Below, in pieces: positions 1,797 through 37,380 of a stretch of DNA of 64,000 bases (positions are counted from its first letter, which is position 1; each line of letters begins with the position of its first letter). This DNA is from Accumulibacter sp. (GTDB taxonomy: Bacteria; Pseudomonadota; Gammaproteobacteria; Burkholderiales; Rhodocyclaceae). The stretch is from contig JACKLW010000007.1 of NCBI GenBank assembly GCA_024235715.1, forward strand, positions 186,001 through 250,000, written 5' to 3'. Made by a program: the position numbers and the translations under genes. The notes under the pieces are model-generated. The model saw only the letters and a program-made list of their open reading frames with translations, had not been told where the DNA came from and made no database searches.

Positions 1797-2310
1797 AGAG
1801 CGGCTGGCGGCGCCTTTGCATCGTTGATCCGGCTTTCCTCGGTCGAACCCACGAAGAGCGTTGCAAACTCAGCGCTGAGAAGGGTTTGTGCCCAATGAGG
1901 CGGGTCGCCCGATGGCTGAAGTGAATCCCGAGCAGAAAGAGGGTCGTCAAGGCGATGGCCAGCGCCTTGCAGGAAACGGCGCAGCGGGCGCAAATGCGCG
2001 TGGCAACGCCCGCTGGAAGGAAGGCTGCCCAACGAACGACAGCAGCCCGGACGGGCCGACGGTGGTCAACGTTCGGGGCACCTGGCTGCTCTCGATACTG
2101 GATGGCCAACGGCGCTATGCGCATTTGAGGCTGCTAGGTGGCGACGCCGTCGCGCCAAAGTCGGGAAGGCGGCGGGACTGGTGGCCGAGAAGCTGAGCGG
2201 GGAAGATCCCGGTCAGTATGTTCGGGACACGCTGGCGGGGAAGAAGAAGCCTTGCGCCAGAAGCCTTGATCCCGAATTTCGCGTTCCTTGCCTTGCATCC
2301 TCGGTGTGAG
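1797..2310. other. Intergenic region without a recognisable gene
   Basis: About 510 bases between the RTX gene and the toxin-antitoxin promoter. An open frame with natural-looking composition runs from about 2112 to the stop at 2307-2309 (it contains LVAEKLSGEDPGQYV) but has no convincing start codon or RBS, and I recognise no family. It may be the tail of a decayed gene. Confidence 0.4.
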
Positions 2311-2329
2311 TATAACAACGGTTATAACA
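2311..2329 (+). promoter_or_regulatory. Probable operator/promoter of the AbrB-Doc operon
   Basis: TATAAC (2311-2316) and GTTATA (2321-2326) form a perfect 6-bp inverted repeat around AACG. TATAACA also occurs as a direct repeat (2311-2317, 2323-2329). The AT-rich palindrome stands out in GC-rich DNA and lies 22-40 bases before the antitoxin start. That is where AbrB-type antitoxins usually bind to autorepress. Function is inferred. Confidence 0.55.
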
Positions 2330-2350
2330 TTGAACAGCGTGGAGCCTTCC

Positions 2351-2575
2351 ATGACCACCCTCAAACTTACCCAGATCGGCAACTCGCTCGGGCTCATTCT
2401 GCCCAGGGAGGTGCTGGCGCGACTCAAGCTGCAGAAGGGCGATACGGTATTCCTTACCGACGCGGCGAATGGCGTGATGCTGACGCCCTACGATCCTGAT
2501 CTTGACCAGCAACTCGAGATCGGGCGCGAGTTCATGCACGACTACCGCGACACCTTCCACCAGCTCGCCAAGTGA
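2351..2575 (+). CDS. AbrB/MazE-family antitoxin
   Basis: A 74-residue protein with a single N-terminal SpoVT-AbrB swapped-hairpin DNA-binding domain (TQIGNSLGLILPREVLARL) and an acidic, flexible C-terminal tail. This is the standard layout for an antitoxin that binds its operator with the N-terminus and wraps the toxin with the tail. The ATG at 2351 was chosen because it begins the conserved domain and follows a GGAG; upstream in-frame starts would add unrelated residues. The stop overlaps the GTG of the Doc toxin by 4 bases, so the pair is translationally coupled. The AbrB-Doc combination is common in proteobacteria. Confidence 0.88.
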   Translation: MTTLKLTQIGNSLGLILPREVLARLKLQKGDTVFLTDAANGVMLTPYDPDLDQQLEIGREFMHDYRDTFHQLAK

Positions 2576-2961
2576 GCTGGCGCTGGCTCGACCGCCGCGC
2601 GCTCGAATTGTTGCACGACGAGAGCCTGGCCGAGCATGGCGGCGCCAGCGGACTGCGTGACGAAGGTCTGCTCGACTCCGCGCTCGCGCGGCCACTGAAC
2701 CTTGCTCTCTACGGCCAGCCGGATGTGGCCGACCTGGCTGCGGCCTACGGTGTCGGTCTGGCGCGAAACCACCCCTTTGTCGACGGCAACAAGCGCGTCG
2801 CTTTTCTGGCGGTTGGCCTGTTTCTGGCACTCAACGGCCGGCGCCTCGTGGCCAGCCAGGCCGATGCCACGCTGACCTTGCTCGCTGTCGCGGCTGGCCA
2901 GATCGATGAAGCGACGTTGGCGCGCTGGGTGCGCGAGCAGAGCGCGCCGCGCGACGGCTGA
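2572..2961 (+). CDS. doc: Doc-family (Fic fold) death-on-curing toxin
   Basis: A 129-residue Fic/Doc protein with the full catalytic motif HPFVDGNKR at residues 67-75. Doc enzymes phosphorylate elongation factor EF-Tu and stop translation. The motif residues His, Asp, Asn, Lys and Arg are all present, so the toxin looks active. The GTG start overlaps the antitoxin stop (GTGA). The length is typical for Doc (about 120-130 residues). Transcription should depend on the upstream palindrome. The gene runs convergently into the FGE-like gene of the TIR operon. A housekeeping Fic AMPylase is less likely because of the short length and the paired antitoxin. Confidence 0.9.
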   Translation: MSWRWLDRRALELLHDESLAEHGGASGLRDEGLLDSALARPLNLALYGQPDVADLAAAYGVGLARNHPFVDGNKRVAFLAVGLFLALNGRRLVASQADATLTLLAVAAGQIDEATLARWVREQSAPRDG

Positions 2962-3139: not shown

Positions 3140-5615
3140 TCAGCGCCGAGTACCTTCGGTAAACGACGGCGGCGTACCGCCGCGTCTGGCCAGCCCCCCG
3201 TCCGGCCCGGACGGCTGTCCGGCCAGACGCGCGGCCGGCCCCGGCCGCAAAGTCGCAGGCTCCGCCAGCGACTTCTCAATAACCCGACCCGCCGGCTCCG
3301 CCGGCCCGCCTTGACCTGGGGCGAAGCGGACCCCATGATCTGGGAGCGGGACTCGGGCTCGAGCCTGCTGCGGCCGGCACAACGCGCGCCCCCGCCGAAG
3401 CTGAACCACGAGCCGCCGCGCAACACGCGGTTGACGCCAGTCTGCGGGCCAGTCGGGTCAAGCTGTGGCGCGGTCGGGTAGTCGCCGTACCAGTCGGCAC
3501 ACCATTCCCAGACGTTGCCGTGCATTTCGTAAAGCCCCCAGGGGTTTGCGGGCAGCGAGCCGACCGGGACCGTCTTCTCGCGGTACAGGCCCTTTTCGCC
3601 ACCGGCGTAGGGATGGTTGCCGTCGTAGTTGACCTGCTCGGGAGTGATGTTTTCGCCGAAGGAGAAGGGAGTTGTCGTCGCCGCGCGGCAGGCGTATTCC
3701 CATTCGGCCTCGCTCGGCAGGCGCGCGTGCAGGCCGGGCACGTGGCGGTTCAGTCCGGCGAGGAAGGCCTGCACGTCGTTCCAGCTGACGTTCTCGACCG
3801 GGTTGCGTGCGTCGTCCTGGAACTCGCTCGGGTTGGCGCCGGTCACCGCCTGCCACAGCGCCTGCGTGCAGGCGGTGTCGGCGAGCCAGAAGCCGCGGCT
3901 CAGCGTCACTTCGTGCTGCGCCTCGTTGCCCCCGCGCTCGGCCTCGTCCGTCGGCGAACCCATCAGGAAACGGCCCGGCGTGAGCCAGCGGAAGCGCTGA
4001 CTGACGCCGGCGACGTTGATTTCGGCGAACAGCCCCCAGGCATCGACGCCGAGCGGCTGCTCGCTGGTCCAGCCGCCGGCCTGCCCGAGCCCTTCGGACT
4101 GGCCGGTCTGTCTTGGCTGCGGCGGCTGCCAGTCGAGCCGGCAGCGCTCCCCAAGCCAGTGCACTTCGGCGAACAGCCCGCGCGCGTCGCGGCCGATCGC
4201 TTGCGCCCAGGCTGGCCTGGCGAGCGCGCTGACAGTGAGTTCGAGGTGTTCGCTACGCAGTTCGATACGTTCCAGGTCGCGTCCGAGCCTGGCGATGGTC
4301 TGCGGCAGCGACCCGGCGGCGACATAGCGCAACGGGGCACCGGCGCTGGTTTCGGCGTTGCTGTCGTCTGACGCGCTCTCGGCATCGTACGTGACGCGAA
4401 CGAAGACGCCGCCATCGACCAGCGTCAGCTCGGCATAGGGGCTGGCGTTGGCCGGTGTCGTCTCGCCGGTGCCATCAGCGCTGTCGGTCAGCGCTTCGAG
4501 GCGCAGCTCCTGGCCGCGCTGGCGCAGCGCGCAGCGGACCGGCCGGCGGGCCGGCTCGGGCTGGAGAAAGAAGCTCACATCCTGCTCTTGAACGCCGGGC
4601 GGCAGTTTGAGCATTTCGCCCTGCATGCGCGTCCGCTGGGCGAGCGCCCAGAGCGCGGCCAGCGCCTCGTTGTCGGCGAACATGGCATCGCTCTGGCGGC
4701 CGACGTGGCGGCGCAGCCATTGTTGCAGGGCCGGTGAGTCGGCGCAATCGAGCGCGGTCCTGGCGATGTCGTGCTGCCAGCGGTCGACGCGCTGCGCAGT
4801 CGGGCGCCGAATTGCTGCCAGCCACGCAGCGTTTCGGGGGCGCGGTTGATCAGTCCGAGGTCGCTGAGGATCAATAGCGGCGTCGCGCCCGCCGGCACCT
4901 GCCAGCGCTGCGTGGCGCTGCGCAGCGGCTCGCGCACCAGCGGCTGCGCGCGGGGCTCGCCGTAGAGGATGCGCCGGTCCAGCCCGAGCCGGCCGTGACG
5001 ACGTTCGAGGGCGCGGCCGAGCGCGTTGAAGTCGCCGTGAAAGGGGATGGTTGGCCGGCTGTAGTCGGCGAGCAGGGCGATACGCCGGCTCCAGCCATGG
5101 CGCTTGAGCATCGGGATCGCATGCAGCACCTCGCCACGCGTCAGGCGGTCGAGCAGGTGCGGCAGGTCGGGTTGACGCGAGGCGACGGTCTGTCGCAGCG
5201 TGCGGCGCAGGAAGGGCCACAAGCGCGACCAGCGGGTCAGCGGCTGGCGCACGGGAATGCGCACCGAACCCGGAGCGGGGCAGGCGTCCTCGGCCAGCAC
5301 GCGGGCGTTCGCCAGCCAGTCCGGCGCCTCGGGGCCGCTGCCCGGCGGCGGGTCGGATTGCCGGTGCTCGGTCACGTGGAAGAAGCGCGCGGCGGGAAGG
5401 GCTGCCGGGCGCTCGGGCAGTGGTGGCGGCCCGGTGTCGACAACGAATTTTGCGTTGTGGGAGACGGTGACATAGGCGCTTGCCGCAACCAGCGCTGGCA
5501 GGCGCTCGTAGCCGAGTGCCAGCGCCGCCAACTCCAGCGCCTCCTCGCCGTATTCGGCATAGACGCGCAGCAGGTCGGCGCGGCCGACCGCTGCCCGCGT
5601 GCGCAGCGTGTTCAT
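3140..5615 (-). pseudogene. vWA-like/FGE-sulfatase-domain protein of the TIR-MoxR operon, two frameshifts
   Basis: Restoring two single-base deletions (near 4795-4800 and near 3335) gives about 825 residues. Residues ~1-270 contain two hydrophobic strands, IALLADYSRP and PLLILSDLGLI, resembling a divergent vWA fold with a broken DxSxS metal site, as in SAV_2336-related proteins. The C-terminal ~250 residues are an FGE/SUMF1 domain (LMGSPTDEAERGGNEAQHEV, EWEYACRAAT, GNVWEWCADWYGDY, RGGSWFSFGG). The paired catalytic cysteines of true formylglycine-generating enzymes are not both present, so a binding rather than enzymatic role is inferred. The ATG overlaps the MoxR gene stop as TAATG. The frame changes may be decay or sequencing errors. 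Confidence 0.75.
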
Positions 5616-6592
5616 TAGTTGGACGATGGGTGTTTTCTGAGGGTGAAGCCCTGCACCTTACCCAGCAGAGCAGCCTGCTTCTGCGGTTCGGGTTCAAGCG
5701 CGGTGACGACGCGCAGCAGGTCGATGTACTCGGCCTGTCCCGGGCCCTGCAGGCCCTGGTCCTCGGCCGCCTGGCGGTCCTGCCACAACTGCCCGGCGGC
5801 TTCCCGGTACACCTCGGCGGTGCAGCGTTCGCCGAAATGCAGCGTGCCGCGGGCGATCAGTGTGGCGATGAAGTCGTCCTGATTCTTCGGCAGTTGCGGG
5901 TTGAGCACCAGGCAGCGGCGGACGAAGGCCGCCGGCAGCTCGCGCTCCTCGTTGGTGGTGATCACCACCAGTGGCGTCGGCGCTCCCGGCGGCGCGCTCA
6001 CCGCTTGCTCCAGCCAGGGAACGGTGAAGGCGCCGTTGCCAAGCGTCTCCAGCAGTCCGTTGGGCAGGTCGGCCTCGGCCTTGTCGATCTCGTCGATCAG
6101 CAGCACGCTGCCCTGCCCGGGCTGCCAGCCGGCTGGCGGCTGCGGCCGCGCACTCTGCTGCCCGCCAAGCTGGTGTTGATCGAACGCCGACTGCCAGTCG
6201 AAGACCCACCACAGCGCGCCGGGACTCAGGTAGTTGCCTGGCGCCAGGCGCTGGCGGACTTCCTCCGGCGTGTGGCTGCCGGCGCCGATCGCCTGCGCGT
6301 CGCCGAGCCGGCCGAGCGCGTCGAAGCGCCACTGCAGGTCCTGGCTCTCGCTGCGCGCATGCACGACTTCGGCGATGAACAGACGGCCCAGGGCCTCGGC
6401 CGCCGCCCGCGCCAGCTGGCTCTTGCCCGAGTCGGGTTCGCCGCGGACCAGCAAGGGGCGCTGGGCGGCCAGCGCGGCGCGTACCGCCCAGGCCGATTCC
6501 TCGTCGAAGCGGTGCACGGCCGCCGGCCACGAACCGCGTTGGGGCAGGGGAATGGAGGTGAGCGGGAGGTCGGGGATGGCGGTAGTGTTCAT
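5615..6592 (-). CDS. MoxR-like AAA+ ATPase
   Basis: A 325-residue AAA+ ATPase of the MoxR type. Walker A is GEPDSGKS (residues 51-58), Walker B is VLLIDEID (163-170) and sensor 1 is TTNEER (around 214). MoxR ATPases usually remodel or activate a partner that carries a vWA domain. Here the probable partner is the next gene. The ATG at 6592 overlaps the TIR gene stop as ATGA, and its own TAA overlaps the next ATG by one base, so the three genes form one tightly coupled operon. The gene itself is intact, unlike both neighbours. It probably switches or gates the TIR effector in an NTP-dependent way (inference). Confidence 0.85.
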   Translation of the reverse strand: MNTTAIPDLPLTSIPLPQRGSWPAAVHRFDEESAWAVRAALAAQRPLLVRGEPDSGKSQLARAAAEALGRLFIAEVVHARSESQDLQWRFDALGRLGDAQAIGAGSHTPEEVRQRLAPGNYLSPGALWWVFDWQSAFDQHQLGGQQSARPQPPAGWQPGQGSVLLIDEIDKAEADLPNGLLETLGNGAFTVPWLEQAVSAPPGAPTPLVVITTNEERELPAAFVRRCLVLNPQLPKNQDDFIATLIARGTLHFGERCTAEVYREAAGQLWQDRQAAEDQGLQGPGQAEYIDLLRVVTALEPEPQKQAALLGKVQGFTLRKHPSSN

Positions 6593-7827
6593 GAATTCTT
6601 GGCGAGCCGTTCGGGGATGGTCAGAAGTTCTCGAATGATGGTCATCAGATAGACTTCGTCGCTGATCAGCAAGGCTGGGCGGTCGCCCGAAGACTTGAAG
6701 AAGATCACCGCGATTGCCGGCAACTTGGCCAGCAGTTTGCGGTAGAAGTTGGGCCGGCAGAGTCGTGATTCCTGCTCGGCGGCAACCGGAACGTAATGGT
6801 TGTGCGTCTTCTGCCTTTCGCGAAAACGCTGTGCACTGTTCAGTGTGCGCAGATCGCGATCTGACGGTGGCGGGAACTGACCAGTTCGACGCCAAGCGGC
6901 GTCTCGACGACGATCTCGAAACTGAGCTGACCATCGGCCAGCGCGTTTCTCTGCGCCAGTCCAAGGCTCGCGCCATCGACCGCCAGCAGGCTCAGCCAGG
7001 CAAGCGCGGCTTTCGCGTCGTTCCAGGTGTCGGCGAATTCCTGGTGGCGGGGATCGAGCAAGGCCAAGGTGCTTCGGGTCGCTGGAAACAGCAGGTCCTC
7101 GAGTGCCTTTTCCGGATCGGCGGCGCACAGGCTTGCCGCCAGGTCTGCTGCCGGCGGGATGCCGGCGTCGCTCAGGGCCGCCTGCAGCGCCTCGCTGAGG
7201 CGATTGCCGTGGGTCAAGGATGCGGCGGATTTCGTCGGTGATTCTGGCGCGGAAAGCGTCGTCCGGCGGCCCGTTCGGTGCTGGCGCGATGCGATCGAGC
7301 AGCGCAGCGAAATCGCTGTCGACATGTACATCCTCGGTCAGCGTGTTCATGTCGGCGAGAATGGACAGCAGCGTGTCCGTCAGTCGCCGGTTTTCTGCGT
7401 AGCCGTCGAGCTCGTCACGCGCTTGCCCGGTGTATTTGGGGTCACTGAGCCTGGCGAGTCCTGACTGCAGTTCATCGATTTCCGCTTGCCAGTGGTCGAT
7501 GTAGGGCAATCGGTCGGCCGCCTTGTGGAAGCGCGTTCCCTTCAGGACGATCGGGTTCACCCGCTTGGCGAAGCTGCGGTTTTCATGAATCCGGCGCAAC
7601 TCGTACATGCAATACTCGGACTTGAAATAGGCGTCGCTGAGTATCAGCACGACGTGCCCGGCTGCACCGATCCGGTCCATGAATTGCCGGATCGAATCGC
7701 CGTAGTTGATCGCCTTCTGGTCACGCCGTACTTCGATCCCGCGCGCGGCGCACGCCAGCTCAAGCTTGTCGACCAGCCGGTTCTGCTCTTCCTCTTTCCA
7801 GGCATACGAGACGTAAACGCTGACCAT
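6589..7827 (-). CDS. TIR-domain protein (predicted NADase effector), with two compensating frame changes
   Basis: The ATG at 7827 follows a strong GGAGGGGG RBS. Residues 1-~140 are a TIR domain: VSVYVSYAWKEEE, a hydrophobic core HVVLILSDAYF, and SEYCMYELRRI with the likely catalytic Glu76 of bacterial NAD+-cleaving TIR enzymes. After ITDEIRRIL (~7220) the frame open to the end turns Arg/Pro/Gly-rich. The neighbouring frame instead reads a natural helical segment (THGNRLSEALQAALSDAG onward) until about 6865, where the first frame becomes natural again (LRTLNSAQRF to the stop). A +1/-1 indel pair explains this. The true protein probably has ~412 residues. It is the first gene of the TIR-MoxR-FGE operon. 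Confidence 0.8.
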   Translation of the reverse strand: MVSVYVSYAWKEEEQNRLVDKLELACAARGIEVRRDQKAINYGDSIRQFMDRIGAAGHVVLILSDAYFKSEYCMYELRRIHENRSFAKRVNPIVLKGTRFHKAADRLPYIDHWQAEIDELQSGLARLSDPKYTGQARDELDGYAENRRLTDTLLSILADMNTLTEDVHVDSDFAALLDRIAPAPNGPPDDAFRARITDEIRRILDPRQSPQRGAAGGPERRRHPAGSRPGGKPVRRRSGKGTRGPAVSSDPKHLGLARSPPPGIRRHLERRESRACLAEPAGGRWREPWTGAEKRAGRWSAQFRDRRRDAAWRRTGQFPPPSDRDLRTLNSAQRFRERQKTHNHYVPVAAEQESRLCRPNFYRKLLAKLPAIAVIFFKSSGDRPALLISDEVYLMTIIRELLTIPERLAKNS

Positions 7828-8063
7828 CGAACCCCCTCCCGTCGGGTTTTCTGGGAAACGGATCGGCTTCGGGCGCTGCGGCCGCCGCAGGCGACACAGC
7901 GGCCGGCAATCCCGCGCGACCTGCACAGTATCGGTGCCGCTGATGCGCCAGTCAAACGGCTAACAGGTTGGCCAGCAGGGCGGGCCGTGGTTGCGGCACT
8001 GAGGGCTCGCAAGGTCTTGACGACGGGGCGGAGGCGTAGTTTCCCTGCCGGCTTGCTCGGACC

Positions 8064-9017: not shown

Positions 9018-10940
<1,923 letters not shown>

Positions 10941-24043: not shown

Positions 24044-24512
24044 GGCGAGCGTATCCTTTCTTCGGCACGTGTCCGGGGTCGCGGCCGCTGGCCCCAAGAT
24101 AGGGAAAACTCAATACTAGCGCGCTCGAGCGGGCCTGAAAAGGGTTATCTTTCAGGATGATGTTGGCGAAACCTCGCCTGGACGAGAGGCCGTTCCGCGA
24201 CGCCAAGCAGTTGGGAAAGTATTGTGCCGGCGCCAGGGCAATCGGGAAAAGCGGCTTCCCGAGCAGCGCCCGCGCCGCCGTTTCGCTGACCGAAATGCAG
24301 GCCGTGTCGCGCGCTGGCCCGCCGAACCTGGGCAGGCATTGCTCGTCGAACTGGCTCATGCAGCCCCGCACCTGACGCCGTTCAATGTGCAAGCTGCGCA
24401 CGCGGCAGGGGATGGTCATGCCTTTCATGGTCCGGGGTATCTCGGCATGTCATGAACATCGGGCAGGTCCTGGTTGTAAGATGGGCGGGTGAAACTTCCG
24501 GGAGTATTGATC
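24044..24512. other. Divergent intergenic region (kor operon / rhodanese)
   Basis: About 470 bases between the divergent kor operon and the rhodanese gene. It must contain both promoters, and it carries copy B of the 42-bp dispersed element at 24414-24455. No coding region is supported; frames open on either strand have no RBS and no family resemblance that I can see. Confidence 0.5.
24414..24455. repeat. 42-bp dispersed intergenic element, copy B
   Basis: Begins GGTCATGCCTTTCATG and ends CATGTCATGA. It is colinear with 15223-15264 with nine substitutions, eight of them transitions, and lies 57 bases before the rhodanese start. Confidence 0.5.
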
Positions 24513-36850: not shown

Positions 36851-37380
36851 CTATGGTCCGCCGCCGACCGTTTGCGCACCAACGTTAACCGCGGCGACTA
36901 CATATGCACGTCGTGCTTGGCCTGGTCTTCCTCAAACACATCTCGGACGCTTTAAGGGAATGCCGCGACGAGTTCACCAGGGCTCTCTTCGATCCGGCGA
37001 ATGATTACTACCTCGGCGACGATTCGGGCACGGTCGATTCCGAAATGGTCGAGCACGAACTCGGGGCGCGCGACGACCACACTGAAAAGAACGTCTTCCG
37101 GGTGCCGGCCCTGGCGCATTGGTCAGCTCTCGGTCTACGGACAGGAAGCCAACCCCACCACCCGGCGGCTGGCCTCGATGAACATGGCCATTCGCGGTAA
37201 GGAGTTCGACTTTGGCAAGGAGCCGGCGAGCACCTATACCCGTCCGCAGCACTCGGATTTGCGTGCCGACTTCATCATGACCAACCCGCCTTTCAACATG
37301 AAGCACTGGAACGAAGGCGTGAAGGACGAAGACGTGCGCTGGAAGTACGGCGCGCCGCCAGCCCTGTCATCGAAAGCGCG
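36851..37380 (+). pseudogene. hsdM: Type I restriction-modification HsdM relic
   Basis: Fragments of the HsdM methyltransferase appear in successive frames. WSAADRLRTNVNRGDY is followed, after a two-base AT insertion at about 36902, by HVVLGLVFLKHISDALRE and HTEKNVFRVPALAHW. The frame then changes near 37120 to SVYGQEANPTTRRLASMNMA and DFIMTNPPFNMKHWNEG, which keeps the catalytic NPPF motif. About 130 residues that normally separate the two parts (including the SAM-binding motif) are missing. The gene fuses into an hsdR tail, and hsdS is gone. It starts directly after the acnB terminator. Confidence 0.8.

Follow-up and report, generated by a model that had tools for sequence, protein, structure and literature searches.

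The subject of this report is a window of 64,000 nucleotides of Candidatus Accumulibacter DNA (the whole stretch analysed: positions 186001-250000 of contig C7, JACKLW010000007.1, in a draft genome of 4.14 Mb that is divided into 25 contigs and is 90.5% complete) and, within it, an operon on the minus strand that encodes a TIR protein, a MoxR AAA+ ATPase and a third protein, here called the sensor, which ends in an FGE-type C-lectin domain. The operon is probably the remnant of a MoxR ternary conflict system whose sensor tip was varied by a diversity-generating retroelement (DGR). The interval consists of one whole gene, that of the MoxR ATPase, and two decayed genes, those of the TIR protein and the sensor, and the window thus holds a broken member of the known MoxR/vWA/C-lectin DGR systems. 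A first-pass annotation, made from the letters of the DNA, had recognised three overlapping genes on the minus strand (TIR, MoxR and FGE-like, overlapping at ATGA and TAATG) and had put them forward as a candidate immune system. The gene order stands, whereas a working state of this copy is not supported: the TIR and sensor genes carry deletions and frame changes. DGR-diversified C-lectin proteins beside MoxR are of interest as candidate bacterial receptors with built-in diversification.

The C-lectin tip as a DGR variable region

Related loci were collected by one scan of genome contigs with the window MoxR protein, which gave 271 stretches; 217 of these were relatives, and the best 80 were used. 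Because of this single MoxR-seeded choice, the counts given below describe relatives of this MoxR and not bacteria as a whole; the locus sequences also have common ancestry. The flanks extend to at most 6 kb, so that the lack of a reverse transcriptase (RT) or template in any one locus carries little weight.

The tip of the window sensor was compared with the templates of these loci. Locus L006, from another Candidatus Accumulibacter record, has a template repeat (10511-10640) between its sensor and a second, C-lectin-only target, and in cores of 115 bases 20 of the 21 and 15 of the 16 substitutions that separate this template from the two variable regions fall on adenines. Template/variable-region pairs were seen in the sequence of 17 of the 80 loci, whereas the window shows none. 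Among 444 self-matches, 30 were dominated by adenine, two by guanine, one by thymine and none by cytosine. The window variable region differs from the L006 template at 20 positions, 18 of which lie at the 26 template adenines (hypergeometric P 1.8e-11). L006 was the best of the 16 templates compared (the seventeenth, that of L067, was too short); the other 15 gave 27-43 mismatches, with 14-19 at adenines, and the larger numbers are expected because of their greater divergence. The position of 18 of 20 mismatches on template adenines indicates that a DGR once diversified the window gene. This feature of the C-terminal end had been overlooked in the earlier account of the FGE domain. That account had been right to describe the domain (Pfam FGE-sulfatase, 1e-42) as devoid of the catalytic cysteine pair, since a cysteine occupies neither of the positions aligned with the SUMF1 cysteines that we take to be catalytic. 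The same domain matches TvpA of Treponema denticola (PDB 2y3c, 1.2e-20), which likewise combines an FGE-type C-lectin fold with a DGR variable region and is not known to lie in a MoxR operon.

A DGR-type RT is encoded in 19 of the 80 loci, and in 17 of the 49 that extend at least 2 kb beyond the sensor; within the genus, the RT of L011 was matched in 12 of 28 genomes at an E-value of 1e-60 or better. The window's own draft genome yielded no DGR-type RT, its two RTs being of another motif type (the Pfam model RVT_1 does detect the L011 RT). A search of that genome with the L006 template found only the window variable region and a piece of 34 bases on contig C9, and the sequence downstream of the window sensor tail, compared with nine relatives, contains no RT, template or second target. 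Two further loci deserve mention. L006 retains its template and two variable regions (L006:9673-11602) with no RT in the locus, and may be a frozen DGR. Contig C9 of the window's genome has two FGE-type open reading frames (ORFs) with variable-region-like C-termini at 239049-240539 (L135), one of them cut by the contig end; they may have been targeted by a different DGR with an unassembled template and RT.

The sensor extension as a divergent vWA domain

A usable ORF downstream of MoxR was available in 76 of the 80 loci (all except L021, L043, L044 and L064). An iterated profile detected the N-terminal extension of the window sensor in 75 of these 76 ORFs, and a C-lectin domain is present in 67. 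Four (L010, L013, L028, L072) of the nine ORFs that have no C-lectin reach the contig end. The extension is not matched by existing families: the first 267 codons of the window FGE gene gave no Pfam match, no Pfam or NCBIfam family spans the extension, and VWA_CoxE matched 3 of 73 extensions, with a best value of 0.0037. These 73 sequences, out of 75 matches, made up the alignment used for profile-profile comparison (L008, itself frame-split, and L075 were left out). The alignment matched CoxE-type vWA proteins with a probability of 94.3% over columns 141-296 (E 1e-7) and a mixed set of CoxE-type and SAV_2336 proteins with 95.1% (E 3e-8), whereas the controls (reversed sequences, MoxR, TIR, C-lectin, RT, UPC and VMAP-C, of which UPC is described below) gave 0.1-4.9%; the E-values from hhalign are single-pair values throughout. 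The match persisted at 93.8% when the 14 rows up to L020 were removed. A profile search of the PDB with the extension returned one match at chance level (E 0.22).

At the site aligned with the DxSxS motif, the aspartate is found in 72 of the 73 extensions and the first serine in 50, and the last position is mostly arginine (42) or histidine (12); the later aspartate of the metal ion-dependent adhesion site (MIDAS) is kept in 69. The profile match together with the altered DxSxS motif suggests that the extension belongs to the vWA domains and has a degenerate MIDAS, and its identity as a divergent vWA domain is supported to that extent. The degenerate vWA-like N-terminus proposed from the window alone is consistent with these comparisons, in which the region resembled vWA, and neither an unrelated family nor VMAP-C. 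SAV_2336 was rejected as a direct relative, with 0.8% for one sequence and 63% for four, and only the broader vWA set gave a convincing match. In Accumulibacter locus L008, the sensor extension matches ORFs in two frames (L008:6737-9472), so that copy may be broken too.

Interchangeable effectors on a shared C-terminal domain

The proteins encoded upstream of MoxR begin with different enzymes. In the window this enzyme is a TIR domain, whose Glu76 (in MYEL) aligns with the conserved glutamate of solved TIR structures, presumably the catalytic residue, in agreement with the intact glutamate reported for it at first. Pfam matches among 75 upstream proteins comprised TIR_2 in 28, Trypsin_2 in 25, Metallophos in 7, PNP in 2, and SIR2, protein kinase and SEFIR in 1 each. 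These 75, from 80 loci, form the alignment of upstream proteins (L023 and L030 lack such a protein, those of L050 and L056 are short pieces and L075 duplicates L073). An iterated profile placed a window-like TIR in 23 of 78 upstream proteins.

Whatever the N-terminal enzyme, about 230 C-terminal residues are common to 70 of 76 upstream proteins. This domain, here called UPC, had been overlooked in the earlier account of the window, where it is broken in the middle; its alignment contains 67 of 68 reference sequences (L052 was left out). VMAP-C was tried as the identity of the C-terminal domain of the TIR protein and ruled out: the family PF20028 was found in none of the 75 upstream proteins among the Pfam families listed at E 0.01, and hhalign of UPC with VMAP-C gave 0.1%, compared with 98.3% between halves of the VMAP-C set (eight sequences, six distinct). 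The upstream protein of L042 has a weak unfiltered VMAP-C match (E 0.002), which leaves room for a distant relation between the two domains. VMAP-C was found in 3 of the 45 genomes that carry these loci, and a PDB profile search with UPC gave no match. The genome of the window also has a canonical VMAP-C/MoxR/SAV_2336 operon with apparently intact ORFs, at about 752.8-759.4 kb of contig C5 (L132:2789-9392).

When the 75 upstream proteins were scanned with PADLOC and NCBIfam, matches to named defence proteins were obtained, with PADLOC LmuA in 24, PDC-S66 in 18, bSEFIR in 16 and Avs1b in 16. They are read as shared effector domains because, in member 1, the one member on which this reading is based, the match is best over the TIR domain.

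Recurrence of the neighbourhood

The window MoxR protein has both Walker A (GEPDSGKS) and Walker B (LLIDEID) motifs, as had been described, and matches AAA_5 at 9e-10. Its closest named relatives are the Candidatus Accumulibacter records L006-L015, at 72-85% identity. The first-pass annotation had made its proposal depend on whether the neighbourhood occurs elsewhere, and it does: TIR, MoxR and an extension-FGE protein stand together in 20 of the 80 loci, and an RT accompanies the TIR in five. The triple is present in records named Accumulibacter, Methylococcaceae, Methylococcales, Chromatiaceae, Rhodocyclaceae, Zoogloea, Acidobacteriota, Leucothrix and Fuerstiella, among others. In a sample of 28 genomes of the genus, the extension was found in 22 and UPC in 12, all of them within those 22.

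Comparison with described systems

MoxR-clade ATPases associate with vWA co-chaperones, and both MoxR-vWA ternary systems and DGR-associated vWA-FGS fusions have been described (Kaur et al., 2020; PMC7159879). The general features of the ternary systems, a MoxR-type AAA+ ATPase, an adjoining vWA gene and a third protein that bears the effector, are all present here, the third protein being broken in the window. The likeness to the VMAP ternary systems includes the MoxR ATPase, the fusion of a vWA-type to an FGE-type domain, the association with DGRs and the swappable effectors of the third protein (PMC7159879). The difference is that the third protein here has UPC and no VMAP-C match. The iSTAND ternary systems, common in proteobacteria, share a CoxE-like vWA and, in about 22% of examples, an FGE-type domain (PMC7159879). 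A possible difference is that no STAND-type Pfam match was obtained for the 75 upstream proteins at E 0.01 with a library not confirmed to hold an iSTAND model. The identification of the window MoxR with MadB of the MADS system (NF047784) was ruled out, its match of 54 bits being far under the cut-off of 475 bits.

The exact trio had at first not been recognised as a described defence system. The view that this kind of trio is undescribed is not supported, because MoxR genes directly upstream of extended C-lectin DGR targets, often with TIR or trypsin-like neighbours, have been published. In clade 5A of the DGRs, MoxR lies directly upstream of targets with N-terminal extensions of no predicted domain, and the neighbours are often TIR or trypsin-like; DGRs are also recorded in Accumulibacter, and for DGR 9 of Thiohalocapsa PB-PSB1 no VMAP domain was found (Dore et al., 2024; PMC10907252). 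The loci studied here resemble clade 5A, DGR 8 and DGR 9 in the MoxR gene directly upstream of a C-lectin target with a long extension, in the second, C-lectin-only target and in the TIR or trypsin-like neighbours (PMC10907252). Thiorhodococcus drewsii, placed nearest to DGR 8 in the same paper, is the source of locus L032. The likeness to clade 5A is one of gene content. As for differences, the window copy is broken and lacks a DGR RT and template, and the sections of the published account drawn on here assign no domain to the extension and name no shared domain on the effector side (PMC10907252), including that of the loci without VMAP. Literature searches, judged by titles and abstract openings, turned up no further paper that identifies the extension with vWA or names a common domain on the effector side, and the vWA identity of the extension together with the shared effector-side domain appears to be new detail. 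Provided that the extension is indeed vWA and that the effectors have an adaptor-like domain in common, the parts would fit a MoxR/vWA relay that is testable in intact Accumulibacter homologues.

Proposed mechanism and direction of signalling

In the intact relatives, the effector (here TIR) is carried on UPC, MoxR serves as the AAA+ component, and the sensor joins the divergent vWA domain to a C-lectin tip rewritten by the retroelement. A ligand may be bound by the variable tip, and the signal would reach the MoxR ring by way of the vWA domain, with which MoxR is presumed to make contact. The ring would then remodel or release the effector protein through a predicted contact with UPC, after which the TIR domain, if active as an NADase, would consume NAD+ and the cell would stop or die, in a putative antiviral role. 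Given that the vWA protein carries the binding tip and the UPC protein the enzyme, the simplest relay would run from tip to vWA, from vWA to MoxR and from MoxR to UPC-TIR. The same sensor-to-effector direction has been proposed for DGR systems by Dore et al., according to whom the VMAP protein is the sensor in the account of Kaur et al. (PMC10907252). The roles suggested for the window at the outset (FGE/vWA sensor, MoxR switch and TIR killer) agree with the direction of Dore et al.

After the scheme of Kaur et al. (2020), the roles may be the opposite, with the UPC protein sensing the invader, the hypervariable C-lectin acting as effector and MoxR setting the threshold. FGS (FGE-type) domains are indeed counted among the vWA-linked effectors (PMC7159879), and swappable N-terminal domains on the upstream protein leave, by themselves, the direction unfixed. 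This arrangement is nevertheless unlikely, because the upstream proteins bear enzymes of a killing or signalling type (TIR, trypsin, SIR2, kinase), and a C-lectin surface that is diversified by a retroelement is better suited to ligand binding than to catalysis; the FGE cysteine pair is absent.

With the tip as receptor, the intact relatives may constitute a class of their own, as yet without a name, among the MoxR ternary immune systems; this proposal is put forward tentatively. In such a class, UPC would carry swappable killers, MoxR would be the motor and a receptor made of a degenerate-MIDAS vWA domain and a C-lectin would be randomised before attack; in Accumulibacter the receptors would, time and again, have been diversified, left frozen once the retroelement had gone, and lost. 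Loci of the proposed class occur in Accumulibacter, Methylococcaceae, Chromatiaceae, Magnetococcales, planctomycetes and others.

Several observations weigh against the reading of the window operon as the remnant of a DGR-diversified ternary system. No RT was found in 32 of the 49 loci with at least 2 kb beyond the sensor, and, the genome being 90.5% complete, the RT and template taken as lost could be in the missing sequence. UPC was not found in 10 of the 22 Accumulibacter genomes that have the extension, and for this reason it is not obligatory. Three Accumulibacter loci, L204, L205 and L206, combine MoxR with an extension-C-lectin sensor and have no UPC; their third proteins carry DUF4062 (L204 and L205) or a C-terminal TIR (L206), and an RT was matched at full length in L205, partially in L204 and not at all in L206. 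As regards the vWA assignment, which comes from profile comparison, the 14 rows up to L020 taken by themselves matched more weakly (79%), and the four SAV_2336 sequences by themselves reached 63%.

State of the window copy

Comparison by tblastn with intact relatives located the breaks of the two decayed genes (Table 1). The TIR protein, aligned with the intact proteins of L006 and L014, is spread over three segments in frames -1/-2/-1, and about 55 codons have been lost near 6855-6864. The sensor, aligned with its intact L006 counterpart, also occupies three frame segments, with a loss of about 150-170 codons near 4740-4797 and a further frame change near 3334. A codon-usage model of the reading frame gave switches at 4797, 6852 and 7213, and under a stricter rule flagged 4797 and 7213 plus two places elsewhere in the window, so that the model alone is no proof of the breaks. 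Other possible frame changes lie at or beside places flagged by the model, at about 24060-24120 and 37115-37365. Programmed frameshifting was set aside as an explanation, two of the breaks being deletions.

The breaks could be errors of assembly or sequencing in an organism that has an intact operon, as the draft genome is split into 25 contigs and two further places in the window are flagged by the frame model. The chance of this is rather slim, given that two of the breaks are no single-base slips but deletions, of about 0.17 and 0.5 kb, and that long ORFs in other parts of the window are uninterrupted.

If the breaks are real, a reduced system could still function with TIR, MoxR and a vWA-only protein of 346 residues that lacks the C-lectin. 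No stop interrupts the TIR frame before the original one, the first sensor ORF has the length that such a protein needs, and the ratio of nonsynonymous to synonymous substitution (dN/dS) of MoxR is 0.21, 0.24, 0.19 and 0.24 against L006, L014, L011 and L008, respectively. A working remainder is still highly improbable, since UPC is interrupted in its middle, the TIR piece and the first sensor piece have higher dN/dS values against L006 (0.33 and 0.53, respectively), and the ratio is an average over the whole branch that does not date the breakage. The window copy most likely no longer works. It appears to represent a system in decay that kept its last hypermutated tip after the machinery had been lost.

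That the genes serve a housekeeping function, as a MoxR/vWA chaperone pair plus an FGE-type enzyme with no part in conflict, is barely credible: MoxR/CoxE-type pairs are ordinary, and CoxE-like vWA proteins occur in many of 200 genomes, but the FGE tip is hypermutated specifically at adenines and has no catalytic cysteine pair, and the partners are TIR, trypsin and SIR2.

Table 1. Coordinates in the window of the operon genes and of the domains recognised in them
Feature	Position	Strand	Remarks
TIR gene	start 7827, stop ends 6589	minus	decayed; frame open to stop, middle out of frame; ORF 6589-7926
TIR domain	7483..7818	minus	unbroken; TIR_2 4.2e-15, residues 4-115; alignment to 3h16, 3.4e-6
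UPC remnant	6607..7154	minus	two pieces in different frames; UPC alignment (A3) profile, G000:C7:192804-193154 and 192607-192924
MoxR AAA+ ATPase gene	5615..6592	minus	intact, 325 residues; AAA_5 8.6e-10
Sensor gene, part 1, divergent vWA-like domain	4740..5615	minus	extension alignment (A2), match positions 8-297 of 370; tblastn
Sensor gene, part 2, ends in C-lectin (FGE-type) domain	3289..4797	minus	other frame; tblastn
FGE-sulfatase match	~3984-3331	minus	Pfam 1.2e-42
DGR variable region	3334..3429	minus	96 bases, up to the frame change close to the 3′ end
Sensor gene tail	3143..3334	minus	third frame; tblastn with L006 sensor residues 938-995

Neighbouring genes

Just beyond the broken sensor gene, on the opposite strand, lies a MazE-like antitoxin gene (PF04014, 3.6e-7) with a Fic/DOC gene directly behind it (PF02661, 2.5e-17), at 2288-2961 (plus strand). 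An ORF at 114-1796, also on the plus strand, contains many GGxGxDD-like repeats, which we take to resemble RTX calcium-binding repeats.

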